52,819 nucleotides of DNA. Source: an uncultured Desulfosporosinus sp. GTDB lineage: Bacteria; Bacillota; Desulfitobacteriia; Desulfitobacteriales; Desulfitobacteriaceae. Every line of letters begins with the position of its first letter. The first letter of the stretch is position 1. Position numbers and translations under genes: made by a program. Shown here in pieces: positions 18,090 to 39,555 of this stretch. The DNA lies in NCBI GenBank assembly GCA_927405585.1, contig CAKMJS010000049.1, forward strand, positions 1 to 52,819, in the 5' to 3' direction. The notes under the pieces are model-generated. The model was not told the DNA's origin, ran no database searches, and saw only the letters and a program-made list of their open reading frames with translations.

Positions 18090-18210
18090 GTGGTTTTTCA
18101 TGGTGCGGGGTTCGTGGTTTCGAACCTCGAACCTCGAACCTCGATTTGTGACCGTCGTTCACATTGTTGCATAGACTAAGCTGACCATAAAAAAGACGGG
18201 GGATGCGCGC

Positions 18211-20233: not shown

Positions 20234-21604
20234 ATGTCAAAAAGAGGAAGGTTTCTACTGATCGTTCTTTCGTTATGTCTTAGTTTAATCTCAACAGGTT
20301 GTGGTCTTCAAGACCTTTTAGGTAAAAAAAACAAATCTTCTTCCACAAGTAATGGAGGGGGCGAAAGTAAAACTGTCATTGCGGTTTCATTAAATGAGGA
20401 AGATCCTAATAAACTTCTGATTGTAAAAGGGATCGAAGATATGGCAAAAAAAGAAAAAGTCGACATAAAGTATATGGAAAAGAGCGAAAAGGAAAAAGAT
20501 TCTCCCTTGAAAGGTGCTAAACTCCTAATTTATCAAGGGGGTGATGAAAGTCTACTTAAGAGTGCCGAAGCAGACGAAATCCCCATATTAGCCCTTGGCC
20601 AAATGCCTTCGGGAATAAAGCTCGAAGGGATCATTACATCTGATCAAGGAAAGGCCGGGGAAATTATGGCCCAAACTATTGTCAGCAAGGTAGCGGAGGG
20701 TCAGATTGTTATTCTACAGGGAGACTCATCTGAAAGTGGATCCCAGGAACTTATAGCTGGGAATAAGGCAGTATTTAGCAAATATCCTAAGTTAACAACT
20801 CATACTATCGTAAGTGCCCCGGGTTCTGAAGCAACTGCTAGGCTTGGCTTAGCGGAGTTCCTAGCTAAGAATCCCGACAAAGTACAGGGCGTTTTGGCCC
20901 ATACCGAGAAATTAGCAGCCCAAGCAAGCGGAGTTTTAAAACAAGCACAATTAGACAAAAAGATTATCTTAGTTGGGGGACAAGCTAGTGTTTCCTCGTT
21001 AGAACGGATGTCCACAGGCGCTCAGGTTGGAGATGTCGATACCTCTCCTTATCTTCAGGGGGTTAATGCATATCAATGGGCTCAAAAAATTATTAAAAAG
21101 CAATCCTTAGACGTCAACAATACGGTTACTAGTGAGAGAGGAGAAATACCAGCGAAAATTATTCAGGTAAAGGCTGTAACCCCAGATAATATCGCGGTGA
21201 TCCAAAAGAGTTATACCTTGACCATGAAAAGTGCAGAGCAAGATAAAAAGGAAAAAGAGGAAAAGAAAAAGAAGGATCAGAAAGGAGATCAAGCTGAAGG
21301 GAAAGATAAAGAGCAAGGAGGTTCGAAAAAAGAAGAGGGTCAAGCTGACGATAAGAAAACTCAAGGAGGAGATAAGCAGGAAAGTCCTCTTCCGGCTGGA
21401 GTTGAAAAAGTAACAGAACGGATAAAGACCGAAACCACAAGAGAATATCTTGATGCTCAAGGGAAAGTTATTGGTACCGAAAAAACAGTCAATGAACAAG
21501 TAAAAACAGTCCCACCAGAAATGTTAAAGCAACAACAGACTGAGAAAGCAAAAGACGAGAAGAGCGAAGGGGGGCAGGAGGAAAAGAAAGAGAATAAAGA
21601 ATAA
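20234..21604 (+). CDS. Lipoprotein with sugar-binding-like (Peripla_BP_4) domain and charged C-terminal tail
   Basis: 456 residues. Lipoprotein signal with lipobox ISTGC (C23). Residues about 45-330 resemble periplasmic sugar-binding proteins of the RbsB type (LLIVKGIEDMAKKEKVDIKY, ILALGQMPSGIKLEGIITSD, QIVILQGDSSESGSQELIAG, DVDTSPYLQGVNAYQWAQKI). Then follow a long Lys/Glu/Asp-rich, low-complexity tract (about 335-385), a small conserved-looking insert VEKVTERIKTETTREYLDAQ, and a second charged tail. No permease or ATPase gene is nearby, so it may be a sensor or surface receptor rather than a transport component. Start ATG has GAAAGGAGCG upstream. Confidence 0.75.
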   Translation: MSKRGRFLLIVLSLCLSLISTGCGLQDLLGKKNKSSSTSNGGGESKTVIAVSLNEEDPNKLLIVKGIEDMAKKEKVDIKYMEKSEKEKDSPLKGAKLLIYQGGDESLLKSAEADEIPILALGQMPSGIKLEGIITSDQGKAGEIMAQTIVSKVAEGQIVILQGDSSESGSQELIAGNKAVFSKYPKLTTHTIVSAPGSEATARLGLAEFLAKNPDKVQGVLAHTEKLAAQASGVLKQAQLDKKIILVGGQASVSSLERMSTGAQVGDVDTSPYLQGVNAYQWAQKIIKKQSLDVNNTVTSERGEIPAKIIQVKAVTPDNIAVIQKSYTLTMKSAEQDKKEKEEKKKKDQKGDQAEGKDKEQGGSKKEEGQADDKKTQGGDKQESPLPAGVEKVTERIKTETTREYLDAQGKVIGTEKTVNEQVKTVPPEMLKQQQTEKAKDEKSEGGQEEKKENKE

Positions 21605-27155: not shown

Positions 27156-27183
27156 TCGAATATCGAACTACGAACTACGAACT
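27148..27183 (+). repeat. Short TCGAAC/CTACGAAC iteron
   Basis: Between uvrA and the HAD gene: ATCGAATATCGAACTACGAA then CTACGAACTT, three or four near-identical units of 8-10 bases, related to the iterons at 17957 and 18119. Confidence 0.5.
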
Positions 27184-28047: not shown

Positions 28048-28121
28048 AGACGAATAATAAAAAAAAGAGGCAAAGGGAAAGCAAAACCAAGACATAAGGT
28101 AACTACAAAAGGAAAAATAAC

Positions 28122-28223
28122 AAAGACAAAGACGAAGACAAAGACAAAGACAAAGACAAAGACAAAGACGAAGACAAAGACAAAGACAAAGACGAAGACA
28201 AAGACAAAGACAAAGACGAAGAC
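28122..28223 (+). repeat. Hexanucleotide microsatellite, 17 units
   Basis: Seventeen uninterrupted 6-bp units, AAAGAC (A) or GAAGAC (G), in the order A A G A A A A A G A A A G A A A G. The last part therefore has a 24-bp higher period. Flanks carry decayed units (AAGACTAAGATTAAGAC). The opposite strand gives a spurious Val-Phe-rich ORF. It ends 82 nt before the FMN dehydrogenase start. Confidence 0.95.
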
Positions 28224-28304
28224 AAAGGTAAAGACTAAGATTAAGACAAAAGTTGGGACCAAGACAAAGGAAACGAGACATAAAGAGTGGAGGAGGTAAA
28301 TGTG

Positions 28305-29455: not shown

Positions 29456-30718
29456 TTGACAAGCGATCAGAAAGCGGTTAAACCGCTGACTTTATTGAAA
29501 GAGAAAGATTTTGCTCGCTTGTTGATTGGACAATTCCTTTCAGCTTTAGGGGATAAAATCCACTATGTTGCTTTGGGCGTCTTAATTTACCGACTGACAG
29601 GGAGTGCTTTAGAAGTCGGTAAGATGACGCTGGCGACGTTTCTACCCTACTTATTATTCGGACTTATCGCTGGAGCCTACGTCGATCGTTGGAACAAAAA
29701 ACGAACGATGATCACTGCCGATATATTAAGGGCCGTTTTTGTGAGCTTAATTCCTTTTTTGATCGGTTATTCGCTCAACTTAGTTTATTTCTTAACGTTT
29801 CTGAGTACCACGGCAAACTTGTTCTTTAGCCCTGCAAAAATGGCAGTCATTCCAGCAATCTTTACGAAAGAGAAGATTCTTACGGCAACTTCGTTAGCTG
29901 AGACGGCAGAAAACATCACTGAAATCCTCGGGTATGCACTCGCGGGCGTATTGATTATGTTTATCCCAATTCAAACTGTATTTTACCTCGATTCCTTGAC
30001 TTTTTTACTTTCGGCGACCTTGATCTTTTCTATGAAGTTTAATTTTGAAACTCAGGACAAAGCAGAGCGGAAATTTGAAATAGAAGGCAAGCCACACATC
30101 TTTCAGGATATTTTGCAGGGGTTAGTTTACATAAGAAAAACAAAAATACTAGCCCATACGCTGCTTACGTATTGTTTAGCGTTACTTGTCTTCAGTGGCT
30201 TTAATCCCCTGATTTTTGTATATGCTCTAGATACATTGAAGACATCAACCGCCGGACTGGGGGTCCTCGAAGCGAGCGCAGCGATGGGCATCACGCTGGG
30301 CAGTATAGCGATTAGTTTCTGGGGACATCGTATGAATAAACAAAAACTGGTGCTCTGGGGATATTTTATCTCCGGGCTAACGATCATGATACTCGGAATG
30401 TTTCCCATATATATTATTGCACTTATGGGCTTTTTCGTAGCAGGAGTTTCTAATGCTATGTTTTTAATTCCGATTGTAAGCATTTTTCAAGAAGAAACAG
30501 CAGCCCCTATGCGGGGCAGAGTCTTCAGCGCTCGGTTTGCTTCAACTCGGGTGGCTTTCATGGGCTCCGTTGTTATGCTAACCTACGGCGCCACGCAAAT
30601 CGGGGTGGAAAAAGTATATTTGTTATCAGGATCAGCGTTACTTTTAGGGACAATTTTGCTGTTCGGACTTACTACCTTGGAAGCGAAGACTGCTGCAAAG
30701 ATCTCCAAGACTATTTAA
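29456..30718 (+). CDS. MFS transporter, drug-efflux type
   Basis: 420 residues with about twelve hydrophobic segments. The MFS loop 2-3 motif appears as GAYVDRWNKKRTM. Overall layout resembles the MFS_3 / macrolide-efflux-like group (FARLLIGQFLSALGDKIHYV at the N-terminus, GRVFSARFASTRVAFMG late). Likely proton-driven export of a small hydrophobic compound, substrate unknown. TTG start at 29456 follows GGAGGAAGAC. Monocistronic, ended by the 23-bp hairpin at 30787. Confidence 0.85.
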   Translation: MTSDQKAVKPLTLLKEKDFARLLIGQFLSALGDKIHYVALGVLIYRLTGSALEVGKMTLATFLPYLLFGLIAGAYVDRWNKKRTMITADILRAVFVSLIPFLIGYSLNLVYFLTFLSTTANLFFSPAKMAVIPAIFTKEKILTATSLAETAENITEILGYALAGVLIMFIPIQTVFYLDSLTFLLSATLIFSMKFNFETQDKAERKFEIEGKPHIFQDILQGLVYIRKTKILAHTLLTYCLALLVFSGFNPLIFVYALDTLKTSTAGLGVLEASAAMGITLGSIAISFWGHRMNKQKLVLWGYFISGLTIMILGMFPIYIIALMGFFVAGVSNAMFLIPIVSIFQEETAAPMRGRVFSARFASTRVAFMGSVVMLTYGATQIGVEKVYLLSGSALLLGTILLFGLTTLEAKTAAKISKTI

Positions 30719-30786
30719 TTATTGGTACACCCCATGCCCCTTTCACACAAGGGGGCGATGCTGTGAAATTTGACCGTTAATCCGAA

Positions 30787-30845
30787 AACAGTAACTGAAC
30801 CAGAAGAGACTCATCTCTCTTCTGGTTCAGTTACTGTTCTTTTGA
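30787..30845 (+). terminator. Terminator with a 23-bp perfect stem
   Basis: AACAGTAACTGAACCAGAAG plus AGA (30787-30809), loop CTCATC, exact complement to 30838, then TCTTTT. Unusually long and perfect for a terminator. Confidence 0.85.
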
Positions 30846-31063
30846 AGGTAAGGCACATTCAAAAAAATAACAAGTCAGTATGCCAGTCTAAACACGGAAG
30901 TCAGAGGTCAGAAGCCGGATGTATCAGATCGTTGTATTCCTTTCCGATCTCTGGCCTCTGTTATCAGACCTCTGGAGTGTTTGACGCAAACTATCCGTGG
31001 CATCTTTGACTCGATATTCTCTTTCATATGCCTAAAAGGAAAATTTCTACAGTTCGTGCATTC
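30846..31063. other. Intergenic stretch with imperfect inverted repeats
   Basis: No gene with an RBS seen. CAGAGGTCAG (about 30901) recurs in reverse sense as CTGGCCTCTG and CAGACCTCTG (about 30951-30975), so a larger imperfect palindrome is possible. The 79-codon frame here crosses the terminator hairpin and is not believed. Confidence 0.5.
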
Positions 31064-31079
31064 TGGCACAAGAATTGCA
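31064..31079 (+). promoter_or_regulatory. Sigma-54 (-24/-12) promoter
   Basis: CTGGCACAAGAATTGCAA contains TGGCAC-N5-TTGCA with the exact GG-to-GC spacing of sigma-54 promoters. It lies 47 nt before the radical SAM start with a transcription start expected near 31090. The rpoN gene is 6.7 kb downstream. A sigma-54 promoter needs an AAA+ activator; none is encoded in this window. Confidence 0.8.
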
Positions 31080-31125
31080 ATAAGGGGGCTAAACCGATAT
31101 ACTTAGGCGAAGGGGGTTGTCGCTT

Positions 31126-32976
31126 GTGCGTATTCTTTTAGTTGCACTCAATGCAAAATATGTTCACACAAGTTTAGCCCTTCGCTATCTGCGTAGTGAG
31201 GTCATAGTTGTTTACCCTGACGTTTTGCTTCGGGAATATAGTATTAACGATCGCCTTGATCGAATTGCTGGGGATCTTTTTGAAGCTAAGGCAGACGTCA
31301 TTGGCTTTTCCTGTTATATCTGGAACCTTAAAGAAGTAGTAGCCTTGATTAGACGGCTTCATCCTGTCTGTCCGAATGTGAAATTTGTCGTTGGGGGTCC
31401 AGAAGTTTCTTTCGAGTTCGAGGAATTTCTACTCCAGCATCCGGAGGTGGATGCCCTTGTACTCGGTGAAGGGGAAAAAACCTTTTTAGAACTGCTTACC
31501 GCATGGGAGTACGGCGATGATCTTTCTGACGTCTTAGGTATTGCTTGGAACAAGAGTGGCAAAATCATTATTAATCCTCTCCAACCTTCACCCTTGGATT
31601 TAAATGATCTTACGGATCCCTATACAGAGAAGGAAGACTTCACAGGACGGCTTGTTTATGTTGAGACGACTAGGGGATGTCCGTTTAATTGTCAGTACTG
31701 CTTGTCCTCGACCTTCCGGGGAGTTCGTTTTTTAGAGCCTGAGCGGTTTCGCATTATGTTTCGCCAATTGCTTAAGTACGGTGCCCGCACCATCAAGTTT
31801 GTGGACCGAACCTTCAATGCTAATAAGCGCCACGCTTTTCGGATTTTGGACATTGTCAGAGAAGAGAGCAAACTCCTCCCCGATGTTCAGAGGATTCGGG
31901 TACATTGCGAAATGGCAGGAGATCTATTCGATGACGAATGGATGGAGTATTTCAGAGCTTATCCTGGCGGTTTAATTCAATTAGAAATTGGTGTACAGTC
32001 GACGCATACACCAACACTCAAGATAGTTGCTCGTCCTCAAAACTTTGAAGAGTGGAAAAAATACATACCAGAAATGCAAACTCTAGGGATACCGCTCCAT
32101 CTTGACCTGATCGTCGGGTTACCCGAGGAAAACTGGATAGCTTTCCGAACTTCGTTTAATGATGTATACCGAGTGAAACCGGATATGCTTCAGCTCGGAT
32201 TTTTGAAAGTACTTAAAGGATCAGGACTCCGTTTGGATAGCGAACATTATGGTCTTGTGTACACTCCGGATCCCCCCTATACTATTTTAGAAACCCCGGT
32301 CTTATCCCATGATGAAATACTTCAATTATTACGCATGGAAGACCTACTCGATAAATATTATAATTCAGGGAAGTTTGTTCATGCCTTGAATGAAGTCTTG
32401 AAATTGTTCCCTACCCCGTTTGATTTTTACCATAGGTTTGCTGAGTTTTGGGAACAATGCGGTTGGTTTCATCGACAATGGCAGGGCAAAGCCCTCTTTG
32501 ACAAGCTGTGGGAGTTTATCGAGGAAGTCCGAGGCTCGAGGTCCGAGTCTCAAAGTTCGAAATTGTATGAACGCGAAGCTCTCAGAAGTCAATACTCGTG
32601 CATCCTGCATCGTGCATCGAGCATCGTGCCTCGAGATATCCCCACTCGGGAGAAAATCTGCGATGCCCTTCGTTTTGATTATTACTTATGGGAGCGTCCC
32701 AACACTATTCCTGACTATCTGCGCATTGAAACTGGCTTGGAGACAGTATGGAAAAGTAAACAGGATGAAATTCGACGAGATAGTTCTTGGGAAAACTTAA
32801 TTCCGGAGTCTAAACAAATGGACCGTCGTCAGTGGATGCGTAATACGGCAGTCAGCTATTTTACCTCGGATGTCTTACAGAGTGGGGAACCACCAGCTCC
32901 GTGTTGGTATCTTTTTCACTATCAACAGGGAAATGTATTGGCTTACCGGTTTACGGATGATGGGAGTGCAGTGTAA
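31126..32976 (+). CDS. B12-binding-domain radical SAM protein (DUF4080 type)
   Basis: 616 residues. An N-terminal cobalamin-binding-like Rossmann domain (about 1-140, MRILLVALNAKYVHTSLALR, GFSCYIWN, VVGGPEVSFE) is followed by a radical SAM barrel with CPFNCQYC (C185, C189, C192) binding the 4Fe-4S cluster. The C-terminal DUF4080 region is interrupted at about 467-503 by a stretch made of R5 repeat (see 32524) that keeps the frame. Start GTG 31126 rather than TTG 31117 because AAGGGGG is 10 nt upstream and the family begins MxILLVALNAKY. Transcribed from a sigma-54 promoter; its stop overlaps the next start (TAATG). Reaction unknown, possibly a methylation or rearrangement. Confidence 0.88.
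   Translation: MRILLVALNAKYVHTSLALRYLRSEVIVVYPDVLLREYSINDRLDRIAGDLFEAKADVIGFSCYIWNLKEVVALIRRLHPVCPNVKFVVGGPEVSFEFEEFLLQHPEVDALVLGEGEKTFLELLTAWEYGDDLSDVLGIAWNKSGKIIINPLQPSPLDLNDLTDPYTEKEDFTGRLVYVETTRGCPFNCQYCLSSTFRGVRFLEPERFRIMFRQLLKYGARTIKFVDRTFNANKRHAFRILDIVREESKLLPDVQRIRVHCEMAGDLFDDEWMEYFRAYPGGLIQLEIGVQSTHTPTLKIVARPQNFEEWKKYIPEMQTLGIPLHLDLIVGLPEENWIAFRTSFNDVYRVKPDMLQLGFLKVLKGSGLRLDSEHYGLVYTPDPPYTILETPVLSHDEILQLLRMEDLLDKYYNSGKFVHALNEVLKLFPTPFDFYHRFAEFWEQCGWFHRQWQGKALFDKLWEFIEEVRGSRSESQSSKLYEREALRSQYSCILHRASSIVPRDIPTREKICDALRFDYYLWERPNTIPDYLRIETGLETVWKSKQDEIRRDSSWENLIPESKQMDRRQWMRNTAVSYFTSDVLQSGEPPAPCWYLFHYQQGNVLAYRFTDDGSAV
32524..32634 (+). repeat. R5 iteron element inside the radical SAM gene
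   Basis: Starts CTCGAGGTCCGAGTCTCAAA, contains GTTCGAAATTGTATGAACGC and ends with TCGTGCATCCTGCATCGTGC plus ATCGAGCATCGTGCCTCGAG. The reverse complement of 36606-36722 has the same plan (CGAGGTTCG, TTCGAATTAAAGTGTATGGA, then CGTGCATCGAGCTTCGAGCA). The insertion encodes a low-complexity RGSRSESQSSKLYEREALRS-type segment and does not break the frame. Confidence 0.7.
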
Positions 32977-34166
32977 TGACGTCCCGATATTTCTTACGCA
33001 AAACCGTTACCCTTGGGTTGTTTATATTTGTTCTATTCATACTTGTCAGTGGGTGTACGAAAGCACCTCAAACTGGGCAACCTGGCGGACCAGCTCCTGC
33101 GGTGGTGGACATCTGGCATTCCTTGCAAGGGCCAGAAATCGAGGCTTTACGGGGACAAGTGCAAATAATCATGGAGACACACACCGAAGTGATCATCAAA
33201 TTAAACTATGTTCCAGAGCAAAGCTTTGTAGCCCTTTCCTATCAAGCAGAAGCAGGAGGGGAAGGACCGGAGATTTTTATTGCTTCAAGAGAGATCATCC
33301 GCCAGCTTTATGAACGGGGTACCCTTGCCAAAGCAGCGTACCTGGACCCGCTAGCATTCCCTGCTTCGTTGTCCGCGTTTCAATTTGGTGGTGTGGGATA
33401 TGCTTCTCCTTGGTTGACAGATGTTCCTTTGCTCTATTTCAGGACAGATACTGCCAGCGTGCCTGTCAATTTGGACGACCTTTTCGCTAAAGGCGGAATT
33501 TCCATAGCTGCGCCGGTTACTGCCACACTTTCAACCTGGTGGAAGGGGCAAGGCGGCCGGTTAGTAAATGCAGGAAACCCGGTTCTAAATGATCCCTTCA
33601 ATATTGCGTTTCTTAAACAACTCTTGACCTGGCGTGATGCCTTGAGCCTTCGAATTGATCCATCAGTACTCAGTGCTTTTGTTAGTGGAGAAACACCCTT
33701 CATGATTGCAGGGGCGAGTCAGGCCAAATTCTTAACCCAGCAAAATGTACCATGGGGGAGCATGCAACTGGTTGAATTGGTCGGAGGGCAAGGACAACCA
33801 CTTTTAGGTACGACCCTGGGAATTGCCAATTCTGCCATCAAGACGACTGAAGCCATGCTGCCGGCCATTGAGATGGTTCAGAAAGCACTCCTGACACCGG
33901 AAGTGGAAGGAGCTATGCTGCAAGCAGGACGTCTTCTTCCAGCCAATAGGGAGTATTATCAACGACCAGAAGCCCTTAAAGGCGTGTTTCCGCAGGCGAA
34001 TATTGCCCTGGCCAAGGCATGGAATTTAGAAGGAAATGCGTTAGAATGGAAATTACTCACCTTTCAAGACACGGCATGGAGCAACGTCCTAGTAGGCGGC
34101 GTCACGCCAGAGGAAGCTCTGGCTACTGCGCAAGGGGAAGCTATTAAAGCCTTAGCGGCCAAGTAA
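32976..34166 (+). CDS. Orphan ABC-type solute-binding lipoprotein
   Basis: 396 residues. Lipoprotein signal with lipobox LVSGC (C27), then an extracellular solute-binding domain of the carbohydrate/cluster-D type (VVDIWHSLQGPEIEALRGQV; ADTASV..; AGASQAKFLTQQNVPWGSMQ; LLTPEVEGAMLQAGRLLPAN), as in maltodextrin or multiple-sugar binders. Its ATG overlaps the radical SAM stop, so the two are translated together. No permease or ATPase gene follows, and the next gene (rapZ) is separated by an R1 repeat. Either it shares a transporter encoded elsewhere or works as a receptor. The ligand cannot be told. Confidence 0.85.
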   Translation: MTSRYFLRKTVTLGLFIFVLFILVSGCTKAPQTGQPGGPAPAVVDIWHSLQGPEIEALRGQVQIIMETHTEVIIKLNYVPEQSFVALSYQAEAGGEGPEIFIASREIIRQLYERGTLAKAAYLDPLAFPASLSAFQFGGVGYASPWLTDVPLLYFRTDTASVPVNLDDLFAKGGISIAAPVTATLSTWWKGQGGRLVNAGNPVLNDPFNIAFLKQLLTWRDALSLRIDPSVLSAFVSGETPFMIAGASQAKFLTQQNVPWGSMQLVELVGGQGQPLLGTTLGIANSAIKTTEAMLPAIEMVQKALLTPEVEGAMLQAGRLLPANREYYQRPEALKGVFPQANIALAKAWNLEGNALEWKLLTFQDTAWSNVLVGGVTPEEALATAQGEAIKALAAK

Positions 34167-34177
34167 CAACCTTAATC

Positions 34178-34302
34178 AATCCAAGTGACTCGTTCAGCTT
34201 AAAGCTGAACATCGAGATATTGATGCAGAGACTATCGTCACCGAAGCAAGGTACGGGATTACTACTCCCACTATTATAGATGGAAAAGTCTCAGTATTGG
34301 AT
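34178..34302 (-). repeat. R1 multi-hairpin element, copy C (inverted, degenerate hairpin 1)
   Basis: Read on the minus strand: TCCAATACTGAGACTT, AGTGGGAGTAGTAATCCC, TGCTTCGGTGACGATAGT, CTCGATGTTCAGCTTTAAGC, TGAACGAGTCACTTGGATTG. Hairpin 3 (GTTCAGC/GCTGAAC) differs from the other copies by a compensated pair change. The left arm of hairpin 1 and right arm of hairpin 2 have decayed. Confidence 0.7.
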
Positions 34303-34319
34303 CAGAGGAGGGGCTGAAA

Positions 34320-35243
34320 ATGGCTACCAAAGGATTAGAAATAAAAGGCGCTGGTAAAAAAGGAGTGGAACTAATTGTCATCACGGGCTTATCTGGTGCA
34401 GGAAGGACTCAGGCCATGCAAAGCCTGGAAGATCAAGGATTTTTCTGTGTTGACAATTTACCGCCGAGCTTTCTAGTGAAATTCGCTGAACTATGTGCCC
34501 AGTCGAGGGGAAAAGTCTCCAAAGCTGCGATTGTTTGCGATTTGCGCGGTGGGGAATTTTTTTCTTCACTCAGTGAAGCTTTAAGTAATTTAGAGAAGGA
34601 AGGCTTTCGTCTCGAAGTCCTCTTTTTGGATTCATCGGATGCGACCCTGATACGCCGTTATAAAGAATCCCGACGTCGGCACCCACTCTCACCTCATGGG
34701 CGCGTTCTGGATGGGATTCAAGCTGAACGCCAGCAACTAGAGGAATTAAGAATCCGAGCGGACTACATTATCGATACGTCTGACTTATCCTCTCATCAAC
34801 TTCGCTGCAAAGTAGCTGAGCTGTTTTGTAAAGCCCAGGGACTGGGTCAAATGGCTGTTTCGGTGATTTCCTTTGGTTTTAAATACGGAAGTCCGATGGA
34901 CGCGGATCTTGTGATGGATGTGCGTTTTCTGCCGAATCCGTTTTATGTAGAAACCTTAAGGCCATTGACCGGCGAACACGCTTTAGTTCAGGACTATGTC
35001 TTTGGAAACCCGATCGCCCAAGAGTTTATGGAGAAGTACCTAGCGTTACTGGAATACATCCTGCCTTATTATGTTTTAGAGGGCAAAAACCACTTGGTCA
35101 TTGGGGTTGGCTGTACAGGTGGACAACACAGATCTGTGGCCATTGCGGAACGAGTGGGACAATTTTTAAAGGACCGTCATTATGCCATCACTGTAAAACA
35201 TCGGGATGCTGACAAAAATCAAAAGGGTGGAACAGCGAGATGA
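34320..35243 (+). CDS. rapZ: RNase adapter / nucleotide-binding protein RapZ (YvcJ)
   Basis: 307 residues. N-terminal P-loop domain with GLSGAGRT (23-30): the usual lysine is arginine R29, as in actinobacterial homologues, while B. subtilis YvcJ has GAGKT. LEDQGFFCVDNLPPSFLVKF and the Walker B-like region follow. The C-terminal domain contains VISFGFKYGSPMDADLVMDV, RFLPNPFYVETLRPLTG and the GCTGGQHRSVAIAE motif that binds a glucosamine-type or second-messenger ligand. Start ATG follows GAGGAGGGGCTG. The end overlaps yvcK by 4 nt (ATGA), the conserved rapZ-yvcK-whiA cluster. Confidence 0.95.
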   Translation: MATKGLEIKGAGKKGVELIVITGLSGAGRTQAMQSLEDQGFFCVDNLPPSFLVKFAELCAQSRGKVSKAAIVCDLRGGEFFSSLSEALSNLEKEGFRLEVLFLDSSDATLIRRYKESRRRHPLSPHGRVLDGIQAERQQLEELRIRADYIIDTSDLSSHQLRCKVAELFCKAQGLGQMAVSVISFGFKYGSPMDADLVMDVRFLPNPFYVETLRPLTGEHALVQDYVFGNPIAQEFMEKYLALLEYILPYYVLEGKNHLVIGVGCTGGQHRSVAIAERVGQFLKDRHYAITVKHRDADKNQKGGTAR

Positions 35244-36613
35244 ACCCAAAAAAGCGTGAAGGATTTTTGCGATACTTGAAATGGCTCTACCCCAATCTAA
35301 AAGTAAAAAGGTGGTTTCTCCTAGCTGTTTTTGGAATCTTTCTGTTTGCTACGGGCTTCTCTGTGATGAATGACGGAGTGGCGATTGGTTACGCAGAGTT
35401 ACAGTTTCGAGATATAATTTACCGGATGACGGGCAGTACGCAACACATTGCCGTACCCACTGGTCTTATCATCAGCGGCTTGGGAATCGCTGCGATTATC
35501 ATAGGTTTTAAACGCATGCTCTACTCCATTATTTCATCAGTGCTCCCAGACAACGAAGGAAAAATAGTTGACGTGCTTTACACACGCAACCATTTGCTCA
35601 GAGGACCAAAGATCGTCGTGGTGGGTGGGGGAACTGGGCTTTCGGCTCTCTTACGCGGTCTGAAGCAATACACTTGTAATCTTACAGCCATTGTAACGGT
35701 GTCAGATGATGGCGGGAGTTCGGGCAAATTACGTGATGAACTGGGTATTCAACCACCCGGAGACGTTCGGAACTGTCTTGTGGCTTTAGCTGATACTGAG
35801 GAAATCATGGAAACCCTCTTCTCATACCGTTTTGAAAGCGGTGCCCTTAAGGGGCATAGTTTGGGAAACCTGCTTCTGGCAGGGCTGACCGATACCTTTG
35901 GAGATTTTCAAAAAGGTATTGAACAGGTCAGTAAAGTGTTCGCAATCCGTGGTAAGGTATTTCCTTCGACCTTGGAACAAGTTGTACTGATCGCGGACTT
36001 AGAGGACGGGAACCGCGTCGCCGGAGAAACAGCAGTTCGGGTCACCGAAGGAAAAATTGAGAGAGTTTATCTTGAACCCAGCGATTGTAACCCAGTGCCG
36101 GAAGCCCTGCAAGCCCTAGAAGAGGCAGATCTTATTGTTCTGGGACCAGGAAGCCTCTATACGAGCGTTTTGCCGAATCTGCTAGTGGTAGGCCTCAGGG
36201 AGAAAATCCGAGCAGTAAAAGCCCCTTGCGTGTACGTATGCAATGTTATGACGGAAAAAGGGGAGACGGACGGTTATCGGGTGTCTGACCACCTAAAAGC
36301 TGTTTTAGACCACTGTGGGGTAGGTTTTGTAGACGCAGTCCTCGCCGCCAAGGGGGAAATTAATGCGCCGCTACTAAAACGGTACGTCGCAGAAGAGGCT
36401 GTTCCAGTTATTACGGATCCCCAAGAGGTCGAGCATCTGGGCGCCAAGTATTATGAGGCGAATATCGTCCAAGTAGGGAACGTCGTTCGCCATGACCCTG
36501 ACCGCTTAGCGAAGGAACTTATTCGACTGCTTTTTCGTTTGAAGCCCATGGGAGAGCGCATTGCCTTAGTCGATTCTTATTTGCTCACCCGAAAGCTTAG
36601 CAAAGACTCGTAG
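35240..36613 (+). CDS. YvcK family protein (gluconeogenesis / cell-wall factor)
   Basis: 457 residues. Two N-terminal membrane helices (about 24-42 and 71-89) precede the soluble CofD-like domain, which begins KIVVVGGGTGLSALLRGLKQ (about 131-150) and includes VSDDGGSSGKLRDELGIQPP and GHSLGNLLLAGLTD. YvcK binds UDP-sugars and is needed for growth on gluconeogenic carbon and for peptidoglycan homeostasis in Bacillus. The membrane-anchored form is common in Clostridia. Start ATG overlaps the rapZ stop. Confidence 0.93.
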   Translation: MNPKKREGFLRYLKWLYPNLKVKRWFLLAVFGIFLFATGFSVMNDGVAIGYAELQFRDIIYRMTGSTQHIAVPTGLIISGLGIAAIIIGFKRMLYSIISSVLPDNEGKIVDVLYTRNHLLRGPKIVVVGGGTGLSALLRGLKQYTCNLTAIVTVSDDGGSSGKLRDELGIQPPGDVRNCLVALADTEEIMETLFSYRFESGALKGHSLGNLLLAGLTDTFGDFQKGIEQVSKVFAIRGKVFPSTLEQVVLIADLEDGNRVAGETAVRVTEGKIERVYLEPSDCNPVPEALQALEEADLIVLGPGSLYTSVLPNLLVVGLREKIRAVKAPCVYVCNVMTEKGETDGYRVSDHLKAVLDHCGVGFVDAVLAAKGEINAPLLKRYVAEEAVPVITDPQEVEHLGAKYYEANIVQVGNVVRHDPDRLAKELIRLLFRLKPMGERIALVDSYLLTRKLSKDS

Positions 36614-36722
36614 CGAAGCACGATGCTCGAAGCTCGATGCACGAATGGAGACGTTAGATAACGAACGTTCCATACACTTTAATTCGAACCTCGTGCATCG
36701 AACCTCGCGCATCGCAGAAAGG
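36606..36722 (-). repeat. R5 iteron element between yvcK and whiA
   Basis: TAGCGAAGCACGATGCTCGA, AGCTCGATGCACGAATGGAG, then after a spacer TTCGAACCTCGTGCATCGAA and CCTCGCGCATCG. It has the same plan as the copy inside the radical SAM gene (32524), in opposite orientation. It fills the whole yvcK-whiA gap up to the whiA ribosome-binding site. Confidence 0.7.
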
Positions 36723-36734
36723 AGGTTGGGGCAA

Positions 36735-37682
36735 GTGTCTTTTAGTGCTGACACCAAAGAAGAGCTTGCGCGCTTAGGCGATCAGAAATCATGTTGCGAG
36801 TTAGCCGAACTGGCGGCGTTAGTCCGCATGGACGGAACCCTCCAAATTAGCGCTAATCAACAATACACATTGAATGCCACGACTGAGAGTGCTCCGGTAG
36901 CACGTAAGATTTTTCGCTTGGCTAAAGATTTACTCAAGCGTCCGGTGGATATTGTGGTCAGGCGCAAACTCAGGCTCCGTAAAAATAATTCCTACATGGT
37001 AAGAATCTATCTCCGTGGGCTGGAAGACTTACAAAATCTTGGTTTAGTTGATGAAGAAGGACAAATATACCATGGAATTGCTCCCAATCTGATAAAAAAA
37101 CGCTGTGATCAAAAAGCATATTTGAGAGGGGCTTTTTTAGCAGGAGGCTCGATTAATAATCCAGAAGGAACCTATCATTTGGAAATTGTTAGTAATGATG
37201 AGCAACATGCTTACGCATTATGTCAATTGGTCAATCGTTTTAAATTAGGGGCTAAAGTCAGTAGACGTAAGCACTGGTATGTCGTCTATATCAAAGAAAG
37301 TGAACATATTGTAGACTTTATCGGCTTTATTGGAGCACATCGGGCCCTTTTGGAATTTGAAAACGTTCGCGTGCTTAAAGATGTTAGAAATCAAGTCAAT
37401 CGACTTGTTAATTGTGAAACCGCCAATCTTGATAAAGTTGTGGATGCCGCTGTCCGTCAGATGAAAAATATCCAACTAATCGCTGATACGATTGGATTAC
37501 ACTCCTTGCCACCTACATTACGGGATATGGCTGAGCTGCGTTTGGACTATTCGGATGCCAGCTTGAAAGAACTTGGAGAAATGCTGAGGCCAAAAGTTGG
37601 AAAGTCTGGCGTCAATCATCGGATGAGAAAAATCGATGAGTTGGCTGAACGAATCAGGACCCATAAGGCGGGGAATATATAG
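36735..37682 (+). CDS. whiA: DNA-binding protein WhiA
   Basis: 315 residues. N-terminal LAGLIDADG-homing-endonuclease-like domain (about 1-210; AFLAGGSINNPEGTYHLEIV) that has lost nuclease activity in this family, and a C-terminal helix-turn-helix (about 225-310; LRDMAELRLDYSDASLKELG, NHRMRKIDELA). In Gram-positives WhiA acts in division and chromosome segregation, and in sporulation in Streptomyces. Start GTG 36735 (MSFSADTKEELAR) with GAAAGGAGG upstream; the longer upstream frame only reads through the R5 repeat. Confidence 0.95.
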   Translation: MSFSADTKEELARLGDQKSCCELAELAALVRMDGTLQISANQQYTLNATTESAPVARKIFRLAKDLLKRPVDIVVRRKLRLRKNNSYMVRIYLRGLEDLQNLGLVDEEGQIYHGIAPNLIKKRCDQKAYLRGAFLAGGSINNPEGTYHLEIVSNDEQHAYALCQLVNRFKLGAKVSRRKHWYVVYIKESEHIVDFIGFIGAHRALLEFENVRVLKDVRNQVNRLVNCETANLDKVVDAAVRQMKNIQLIADTIGLHSLPPTLRDMAELRLDYSDASLKELGEMLRPKVGKSGVNHRMRKIDELAERIRTHKAGNI

Positions 37683-37797
37683 CATGTAGGACAATTTGAT
37701 TTAAGGTAGAGGTAGTTTAGTTAAGATAGAGGAATTTGTTAAGTGCAGTAACACCGGATACGGAGAACGTAAAACAGAGAGTTTGGGGGGAGAAAAA

Positions 37798-39198
37798 GTG
37801 CGGCTAGGGTATGGCTTGAATCTAGAGCAAACTCAAAAACTTATTATGACTCCAGAATTGCGCCAAGCAATTACTATTTTACAGTTGTCCGCACTGGAAC
37901 TTTCCACGTATGTTGAGGAGCAGCTTCTGGAGAATCCTTTATTGGAGACCCAAGAAGAAAGTTCTGATCTTAAAGAGGAAGTAGAGCCAACTGTTGAGGA
38001 GGAACGACCAACAGAAGAAAAATGGGAAGTGGATTGGCAGGACTATTTTCATGACCAGGATGAAAATCGTGTTCGCCAGGAACGAGTTGTGGTGGAGGAA
38101 AAACAGCGCTTTGATCCCTTTATTGCTACATCACCTACGCTGTTAGAGCATTTGTTGGAGCAACTCCATGTCCAAAAAGTCTCGGCTTCCTTAGACGTAG
38201 CGGAGTACATTGTTGGTAACTTAGATGATAATGGCTATCTTATGTTGACCTTGGACGAGGTTGCCCGAGATACCAATGTTCCCCTCCCAACGGCAGAAGA
38301 AGCGTTGGCATTGATTCAGACACTTGACCCTTTAGGGGTAGGGGCTCGAAATCTAGAGGAATGTCTTCTCTTGCAGTTACCGCTCCTTCCTGACTATCCC
38401 CCTGAATTACCTGATTTACTCAAGCATCTGGAAGATTTGGCAGCAGGGCGTCTGCAACGAATCGCACATGCCTTGAAAATCACGATAAATAGAGTACAGG
38501 AACTGGCGGATTTAGTGCGAAAACTGGATCCCAAACCAGGCCTCAGCTTTTTTGGTCCAGGAGATGTTCGCTATGTCGTCCCTGATGTAGTGATCGAAGA
38601 AGTAGAAGGGGAATTTATTATCTTAGTTAATGATATCACCGTACCACGGTTGGGGATCAACAAGACGTACCGTGAGGCTCTAAGACTTGAAGAGGGGACA
38701 GACACACGCAAATTTGTTGAACAGAAACTGAACGCGGCAGCCTGGCTCATTCGTAGTATTGAGCAACGTCGCCTAACGCTTTATAAAGTGTCTAATGCTA
38801 TTGTTAAGTGGCAGACAGAATTTCTCCGCCATGGGATTCGCCATCTAAGACCGCTTACATTACGGGATATTGCAGAGGAAATTGGGGTTCATGAGTCGAC
38901 CGTCAGTCGAGCGACAGCCCATAAATACATCCAAACGCCCCGAGGGATCTTTGAATTTAAATTTTTCTTCGCTAACAGCATGGGCAAGGGCCTTCAAAAT
39001 GACTCAGGTATAACGACCGACGTCATCAAACTGGTACTTAAAGACATCATTGCTACCGAAAATCCCAAGAACCCTTATTCGGATCAGAAGTTAGCAGATC
39101 TTTTGAAGGCGAAAAATATTGACATCTCTAGGAGGACGGTAGCTAAGTATCGTGACGAGTTAGGGATTGCGGCGACAACTGTTCGCAAAAGATACTAG
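37798..39198 (+). CDS. rpoN: RNA polymerase sigma-54 factor
   Basis: 466 residues. N-terminal activator-interacting region with LEQTQKLIMTPELRQAITIL (8-27) and LENPLLETQEE; an acidic linker (about 55-100); the core-binding domain (about 110-300); the HTH LRDIAEEIGVHESTVSRATA; and the RpoN box SRRTVAKYRDELGI near the C-terminus, which recognises the -24 element. Start GTG 37798 after GGGGGGAG; the earlier TTG would place the RBS inside the gene. A matching promoter exists in this window at 31064. R2 copy 2 begins directly after the stop. Confidence 0.96.
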   Translation: MRLGYGLNLEQTQKLIMTPELRQAITILQLSALELSTYVEEQLLENPLLETQEESSDLKEEVEPTVEEERPTEEKWEVDWQDYFHDQDENRVRQERVVVEEKQRFDPFIATSPTLLEHLLEQLHVQKVSASLDVAEYIVGNLDDNGYLMLTLDEVARDTNVPLPTAEEALALIQTLDPLGVGARNLEECLLLQLPLLPDYPPELPDLLKHLEDLAAGRLQRIAHALKITINRVQELADLVRKLDPKPGLSFFGPGDVRYVVPDVVIEEVEGEFIILVNDITVPRLGINKTYREALRLEEGTDTRKFVEQKLNAAAWLIRSIEQRRLTLYKVSNAIVKWQTEFLRHGIRHLRPLTLRDIAEEIGVHESTVSRATAHKYIQTPRGIFEFKFFFANSMGKGLQNDSGITTDVIKLVLKDIIATENPKNPYSDQKLADLLKAKNIDISRRTVAKYRDELGIAATTVRKRY

Positions 39199-39555
39199 GG
39201 GACTTGTGTGACACAGCGCTCGGTGCATACGACGCAGAGCAAACTAGGGAACTAGCGTTACAACGCTCACTTGCTTGCTCTCGCAGATCAAACTAAGACT
39301 CAAGAGCTTGCTCTGTGAGAGGGCGGGGTTCCCGGCAAATCGGACGTCCTTGTCCGATTGCCAGCCGTGTACGTCCTTGTACACGGCCCCGCCGTATGAA
39401 GTGCTCTTAAGTCAAGTTTGATTACTGCTCTATCAAAGAAGATTCACTTTTGTAAGCGCGAGTTCCTGGCTAAAGACGGGGGGACGGAACACGAGTTTGC
39501 GAGTCTGCTTACGTATAGACGTCGCGCTCGTGTGACACTGCGTCCCGGGCTAGGA
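39199..39555 (+). repeat. Dispersed element R2, copy 2 (uninterrupted)
   Basis: Begins right after the rpoN stop. It contains CTTGTGTGACACAGCGCTCG, two adjacent hairpins with stems GGCAAATCGGAC and CCGTGTAC around identical loops GTCCTT (about 39336-39385), CCCCGCCGTATGAA, and the outer end CGTGTGACACTGCGTCCCGG. It matches 6144-6704 in reverse orientation except for hairpin stems and the R3 insertion there. No believable gene. Confidence 0.8.

Follow-up and report, generated by a model that had tools for sequence, protein, structure and literature searches.

The stretch of DNA analysed here, called the window throughout, covers positions 1 to 52,819 (52,819 nucleotides, forward strand) of contig CAKMJS010000049.1 in assembly GCA_927405585.1, assigned to an uncultured Desulfosporosinus sp. 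The genome to which this contig belongs amounts to 4.48 Mb, and the best named matches of the lipoprotein described below are Desulfosporosinus records. On the plus strand, the genes of a radical S-adenosylmethionine (radical SAM) enzyme and of a solute-binding lipoprotein head a tight run which continues with rapZ, yvcK and whiA and ends in rpoN, the gene of sigma-54 (Table 1); the names yvcK and whiA were given from context and recall, without a family search. Because the pair heads this run, the promoter site found just before the radical SAM gene stands at the same time before the sigma-54 gene. This site, in which a sigma-54 element and a sigma-A element are superimposed, is the subject of the present analysis.

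The sigma-54 element, TGGCACAAGAATTGCA at 31064-31079, shows zero mismatches to TGGCACN5TTGCW and thus holds the TGG-N10-GC core within the TGGCAY-N5-TTGCW consensus, in an organism where rpoN is present. Considered in the window alone, the site is not significant, since 1 match with at most one mismatch was found where 1.41 were expected. Regions around the gene pair were considered in the genomes of relatives, namely the family of the window (f1, Desulfitobacteriaceae, a name that was inferred; loci of 3.8-11.4 kb) and two sister families, f2 and f3. Promoter counts exclude L092, a contig without the radical SAM gene, and L098, which begins inside that gene and so lacks the upstream region. 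All 41 f1 loci for which this region is available, window included, carry the site: 40 are strict matches (21 with TGGCAC, 19 with TGGCAT), and L074 (genome G027), which the strict pattern missed and which was added by hand to the alignment of f1 upstream regions, reads TGGTAC. A chance match was ruled out by this conservation across f1. On the gene-sense strand, 38 of the 41 fetched f1 loci have a single strict match, and L074, L092 and L120 have none. In the whole genome, TGGCAYN5TTGCW has 78 matches, against 4 for a reversed control pattern. The first-pass annotation of this DNA had described a near-perfect sigma-54 promoter at 31064 and proposed a search for a conserved TGGCAC-N5-TTGC upstream in relatives; the element is borne out by the 41 loci, and the motif recurs throughout f1.

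The same annotation had read the site as plain sigma-54 control of the pair. The element itself is real and family-wide, but a conserved sigma-A hexamer, TATACT, which had been missed, follows 17 nt past the -12 element and turns the site into a composite promoter, not one of the simple sigma-54 type. This spacing is kept in 39 of 40 f1 loci, and L074 fits as well; the lone deviant, G022, has a spacer of 18 and a perfect TATAAT. Both promoters are thus conserved in a fixed register across f1, the -12 and -35 elements overlapping as TTGCAW. When nine genera are compared (one locus per genus, 107 columns), the invariant columns are exactly TGGCA, AATTGC and TATACT, i.e. 17 of 107, and four more columns agree in 8 of 9 genera; mean between-genus identity, 0.26 over positions -45 to -2, reaches 0.45 over the 17-nt spacer. 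In the promoter scan, TTGCAA-N17-TATACT reaches 9 of 12 matches to the sigma-A consensus.

The composite pattern as such is rare. Of the 45 f1 genomes, 40 have a single copy of TGGYAYN5TTGCWWN17TATAMT, always just before the radical SAM gene, and its reversed control gives 0 matches. Three of the five exceptions differ by sequence or spacing (G022, spacer 18; G033, TTGCAC; G037, TTGCGA); in the other two, the contig begins inside the lipoprotein gene (G012), or there is neither a close radical SAM relative nor an assembled whiA (G036). Other sigma-54 sites of the window's genome were checked in the 30 rows of the 78 for which a locus was available, two of which (L132 and L133) are one site: among these 29 distinct sites, a -10 hexamer with 5-6 matches at the same spacing was seen at 0, and one with 4 matches in 3 rows. 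In a phylum sample of 398 genomes, the pattern was found in 6 of 6 f1 genomes and in 8 of the 392 others (10 matches), with 1 match in all 398 for the reversed control. Separately, a second composite-looking element, TGGCAYGAAATTTGCATATAATCATGCAATWTATTATAAT, is near-identical in L246, L247 and L248 (genomes G410, G448 and G252; family f93 of the same phylum).

Table 1. Promoter elements and genes of the run ending in rpoN (positions in the window)
Feature	Position	Strand	Remark
Intrinsic-terminator-like hairpin	30789..30836	+	20 pairs, then TTCTTTT; after the upstream major facilitator superfamily (MFS) gene
Sigma-54 -24 element TGGCAC	31064..31069	+	TGGCA invariant in nine genera
Shared element TTGCAA	31075..31080	+	sigma-54 -12 (TTGCA) and sigma-A -35 hexamer
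Sigma-A -10 hexamer TATACT	31098..31103	+	spacer 17
B12-binding / radical SAM / DUF4080 enzyme gene	31126..32976	+	GTG start inferred
Solute-binding lipoprotein gene	32976..34166	+	MBP-like fold; no recognised linked permease
rapZ	34320..35243	+	
yvcK-type gene	35240..36613	+	4-nt overlap with rapZ
whiA-type gene	36645..37682	+	true start may be downstream of 36645
rpoN (sigma-54)	37783..39198	+	last gene of the run

The genes behind the composite site are tightly spaced in f1. The order radical SAM, lipoprotein, rapZ, yvcK, whiA is found in f1 and f3 loci with long enough contigs, HAD and uvrA genes lying upstream, and in f1 rpoN comes after whiA. In 37 of 39 f1 loci, the lipoprotein gene and rapZ lie no more than 47 nt apart, the gap being 153 nt in the window and 628 nt in one locus; rapZ and yvcK overlap in 35 of 38, and the 890 nt read in the other three were taken as local-alignment artefacts, the gene-order map showing no such gap. 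Between whiA and rpoN, 37 of 38 loci have no more than 109 nt, and one reads 1000 nt. Three f1 genomes have no rpoN match (G036, G042 and G044), and they are read as cases of missing contigs rather than as members free of sigma-54, since whiA is likewise absent from G036 and G042 and the contig of G044 stops 79 nt past whiA. The hairpin that follows the MFS gene probably marks the border of two transcription units. In the window run, the intergenic gaps showed no plus-strand terminator-like site, those detected at 31705, 32892 and 37392 being intragenic; with this and the strong hairpin upstream, a single transcript reaching rpoN is plausible as judged from the sequence. No Rfam match was obtained on 30600-39400.

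Some variation was observed around this run. In the window, the 153 nt between lipoprotein gene and rapZ (34167-34319) hold a short open stretch resembling the end of a coding sequence. An extra gene lies between these two genes in both f2 loci reaching rapZ; it was named PHP-like by eye (HMHSKYSDG) and, in the reoriented loci, spans 7258-8019 in L115 and 7110-7880 in L117. The upstream MFS gene of the window (29456-30718) adjoins the radical SAM gene only in some related loci.

In the sister families, no sigma-54 site was found within 400 nt and with up to two mismatches in 3 f2 and 16 f3 loci with upstream DNA. The composite pattern is absent from the 3 f2 genomes; of the 25 f3 genomes, 1 has it, but elsewhere than before this gene. 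All three f2 genomes carry TTGACC-N17-TATACT before the same radical SAM gene, without a sigma-54 site. In f3, the radical SAM gene closely follows the HAD gene in many loci, and the best sigma-A-like match within 150 nt of it scores 7-9 of 12 (13 loci). The sigma-A promoter is probably the older layer, since f2 carries it alone, and the simplest history would have the sigma-54 layer superimposed on it in f1; a loss of the sigma-54 layer in f2 is a possible alternative.

A sigma-54 polymerase without activator is inert on DNA. On this basis, the site may be a composite switch, at which sigma-54 polymerase would compete with sigma-A polymerase and exert a negative feedback on rpoN; we put the chances of this reading at about even, and we infer from the layout of the site and of the run its competition, occlusion, feedback and read-through to rpoN. 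In such a switch, sigma-A polymerase would read the operon from TTGCAA-N17-TATACT, and sigma-54 polymerase would bind TGGCAC-N5-TTGCA. The two could not sit together, because one and the same stretch of DNA serves as sigma-54 -12 box and as sigma-A -35 box. Bound without activator, sigma-54 polymerase would stay inactive and keep sigma-A from the promoter; once an enhancer-binding protein has been activated, a sigma-54 transcript would start about 20 nt upstream of the sigma-A start, according to a spacing estimate. As the operon ends in rpoN, rising sigma-54 would then lower the transcription of its own gene.

The same two promoters could be used in a more ordinary manner, the sigma-A promoter providing basal transcription while a trans-acting enhancer-binding protein induces the head pair and the genes behind it from the sigma-54 promoter on some nutrient signal, with occlusion and feedback being unimportant. 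This main alternative is quite possible, if somewhat doubtful. It agrees with the conservation of both promoters and with the richness of the genome in potential activators: there are 38 strong PF00158 matches to enhancer-binding proteins, and while 51 of the 78 sigma-54 sites lie at most 10 kb from one of them, the other 27, this site included, have none that near, so that remote activation would not be unusual. On the contig of 52.8 kb itself, no PF00158 match is found among the 44 listed of the 46 genome matches, which counts against the ordinary arrangement; this missing neighbour is weak evidence, because 27 of 78 sites are likewise without one. A crude search for an activator site, covering 300 nt of upstream sequence at 18 of the 40 loci, gave no dyad or shared 9-mer above shuffles. 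Finally, two independent promoters would need no fixed register with shared letters, which is precisely what f1 has kept.

Several points weigh against the composite switch. The sigma-A -35 hexamer TTGCAA has only 4 of 6 consensus matches, and the scan gave no more sigma-70-like matches than chance would (7, against 10.5 expected), so that the weight of the sigma-A promoter rests on its conservation. The spacer identity of 0.45 exceeds the background, and the conservation may in part be due to something else. The site may be activated in trans by an enhancer-binding protein, and rpoN may have its own promoter inside whiA. The gene order can be explained without any feedback on rpoN, since rpoN also follows whiA, at a gap of 2-218 nt, in 6 f3 loci without the sigma-54 site, and the presence of the composite pattern in 8 of 392 non-f1 genomes makes a chance or independent overlap possible. 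The last point concerns the two letters before TTGC: AA (31073-31074 in the window) is invariant in the 41 f1 sites and, as counted by eye, present at 11 of the 78 genome sites, this one included, and is thus not a general sigma-54 feature in this genome. Together with the f2 promoter, which is of the sigma-A type alone, this oddity would fit a reading in which only the sigma-A promoter is real and the sigma-54 look-alike is chance or the site of another protein. Such an explanation is nevertheless very improbable: TGGCAY-N5-TTGC, with C or T at one position, is the pattern seen at 77 other places of the genome against 4 for the control, and the sigma-54 core is invariant across nine genera.

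The composite site belongs to a kind already known, the overlapping sigma-54/sigma-70 promoter. For Escherichia coli, such promoters are reportedly treated by Zafar et al. 2014. According to another E. coli study, sigma-54 represses some sigma-70 promoters via overlapping sites, and competition was shown in vitro for argT, chaC, mdfA and patA, with a C at -12 in all repressing motifs (PMC4551910). A second paper states that repression by sigma-54 had earlier been shown where its site overlaps another promoter. The window site shares with these E. coli promoters (PMC4551910) a -24/-12 site inside the -35/-10 footprint and the C at -12, but differs from them, so far as they are described there, in having -12 and -35 as the same letters, in a register fixed across the family, and in heading a run that ends in rpoN. 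By analogy, the overlap, the C at -12, the shared letters and the terminal rpoN would speak for a competition of the two polymerases that puts rpoN under negative feedback.

As a general idea, such feedback is not new: autoregulation of rpoN has been deduced from sigma-54 promoters in a survey of 2025, for Clostridia and other groups (PMC12316311). What it has in common with the present case is a predicted sigma-54 promoter before the transcription unit holding rpoN; no composite promoter is named in its accessible passages, and radical SAM, whiA and rapZ are absent from its main text. A study of sigma-54 regulons in Clostridiales (PMC6615313) deals with the same sigma factor, called SigL there, and includes Desulfosporosinus and Desulfitobacterium; so far as available, its regulons are tied to named activators, and its main text contains neither radical SAM nor rpoN nor whiA. 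The composite site was not found in the accessible open-licence literature, PMC12316311 and PMC6615313 included, and a search of that literature for YvcK, WhiA or RapZ with sigma-54 returned only Listeria work.

Sigma-54 is mainly treated as an activator-dependent factor. The broader proposition that, throughout f1, inert sigma-54 polymerase acts chiefly as a repressor and throttles the operon making sigma-54 together with the presumed cell-wall-sugar regulators RapZ, YvcK and WhiA is tentative, and we regard it as rather unlikely; if true, envelope control would be tied to the pool of sigma-54. Independently of it, a conserved site seemingly made for competition with the housekeeping factor and placed before rpoN would make the repressor role proposed for sigma-54 directly testable in a naturally conserved case, and could explain how the level of sigma-54 is set where a genome encodes several dozen enhancer-binding proteins. 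The rapZ and yvcK families are presumably concerned with the control of cell-wall sugars. Since the two head genes travel with rapZ and yvcK, our guess, weakly held, is that their role lies near amino-sugar or envelope homeostasis.

The first of them was correctly recognised in the first pass as a DUF4080-type radical SAM gene: its product has the B12-binding, Radical_SAM and DUF4080 Pfam domains, all three over cut-off. The start listed for it, TTG 31117, falls directly on the ribosome-binding site, and GTG 31126, located 46 nt from the sigma-54 site, is the more likely start in view of the alignment of relatives and of the spacing of 9 nt after AAGGGGG. The structure alignments used 25 of 38 radical SAM and 31 of 39 lipoprotein sequences from named loci, plus the window. 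The cysteines C188, C192 and C195 of the CxxxCxxC motif are invariant in 42 sequences. The structure model (mean predicted local distance difference test, pLDDT, 85.2) looks like a cobalamin-dependent radical SAM enzyme: it matches CysS, TokK and TsrM over the B12-binding and radical SAM parts, with CxxxCxxC in common, but at 16-19% identity in the structure alignments and with a C-terminal DUF4080 that belongs to the window enzyme. As a query, the protein matched in 93 of 100 genomes, many of the matches being distant radical SAM relatives. In the open-licence literature, no work was found on DUF4080, and only off-subject work on Desulfosporosinus with radical SAM and cobalamin.

The second head gene encodes a protein with modest matches, over cut-off, to SBP_bac_8 and SBP_bac_1. 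Its lipobox-like LVSGC was read by eye, and the cysteine C27 is invariant in both lipoprotein alignments. The confident model (mean pLDDT 92.0) has a fold like that of MalE and GacH, of the maltose-binding protein (MBP) type, with a template modelling score (TM-score) of 0.65-0.77 in the listed rows and a lipoprotein-like signal; it differs from them by an identity of 15-20% in those rows and by the lack of a recognised ATP-binding cassette (ABC) partner nearby. In the window, where the flanks are MFS and rapZ and not every open reading frame is annotated, neither an ABC permease nor an ATPase was recognised next to the two genes, and none was seen at ten related loci, whose listed open reading frames were read by eye without a family search; the absence noted at the outset thus holds. 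A hidden permease was considered and rejected, as the gaps of 0.9-1.2 kb in some f2 and f3 loci hold PHP-like or opposite-strand open reading frames, judging from translations without a family search. Plasmids gave no match to the lipoprotein, and no work on such a protein in a radical SAM operon was found in the open-licence literature.

The two genes were originally proposed to form a self-contained module, a translationally coupled enzyme and receptor under sigma-54 control, sensing one ligand or taking it up and modifying it. Their adjacency, whose conservation in relatives had been set beforehand as a test, is indeed kept in 39 f1, 3 f2 and 17 f3 loci, and along with the confident MBP-like model and a lipoprotein relative, at times only a weak match, in 63 of the order's 73 genomes against 1 of 27 outside (E 5e-4), it argues for such a module. 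The coupling is another matter. In the window, the stop TAA of the radical SAM gene (32974-32976) does overlap the ATG of the lipoprotein (32976-32978) as TAATG, as had been seen, but the gap ranges from -17 to 330 nt in f1 and is at most 0 in 9 of 39 f1 loci, in 1 of 3 f2 loci (with a doubtful start call) and in 0 of 17 f3 loci; a conserved translational coupling was ruled out by these counts. Moreover, the pair is embedded between uvrA/HAD and rapZ-yvcK-whiA, with rpoN following, the sister families keep it without the sigma-54 site, and relatives of the DUF4080-type enzyme occur where no lipoprotein relative was found (G052, G054, G059 and genomes of other families). The module is for these reasons improbable, and its self-contained character is not supported.

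Some minor features of the window may be mentioned. A second protein with a periplasmic-binding domain (Peripla_BP_4) is encoded at 20234-21604, about 10 kb upstream of the pair and just before uvrB. About 22 copies of the hexamer ACAAAG form an array at 28120-28264, between the HAD gene and a flavin mononucleotide (FMN)-dehydrogenase-like gene. Tandem repeats of 7/14 nt with related, TCGTGCA-like units are found at 18120-18144, 27164-27183, 32596-32633, 36614-36645 and 36684-36714. Of the last two, one is located where yvcK and whiA meet and the other covers early codons of the whiA open reading frame as listed. The repeat at 32596-32633 is in frame inside the radical SAM gene, in or beside a linker of low confidence (model residues 478-505), and this insert has 12 further partial matches in the genome, one of them in the window.

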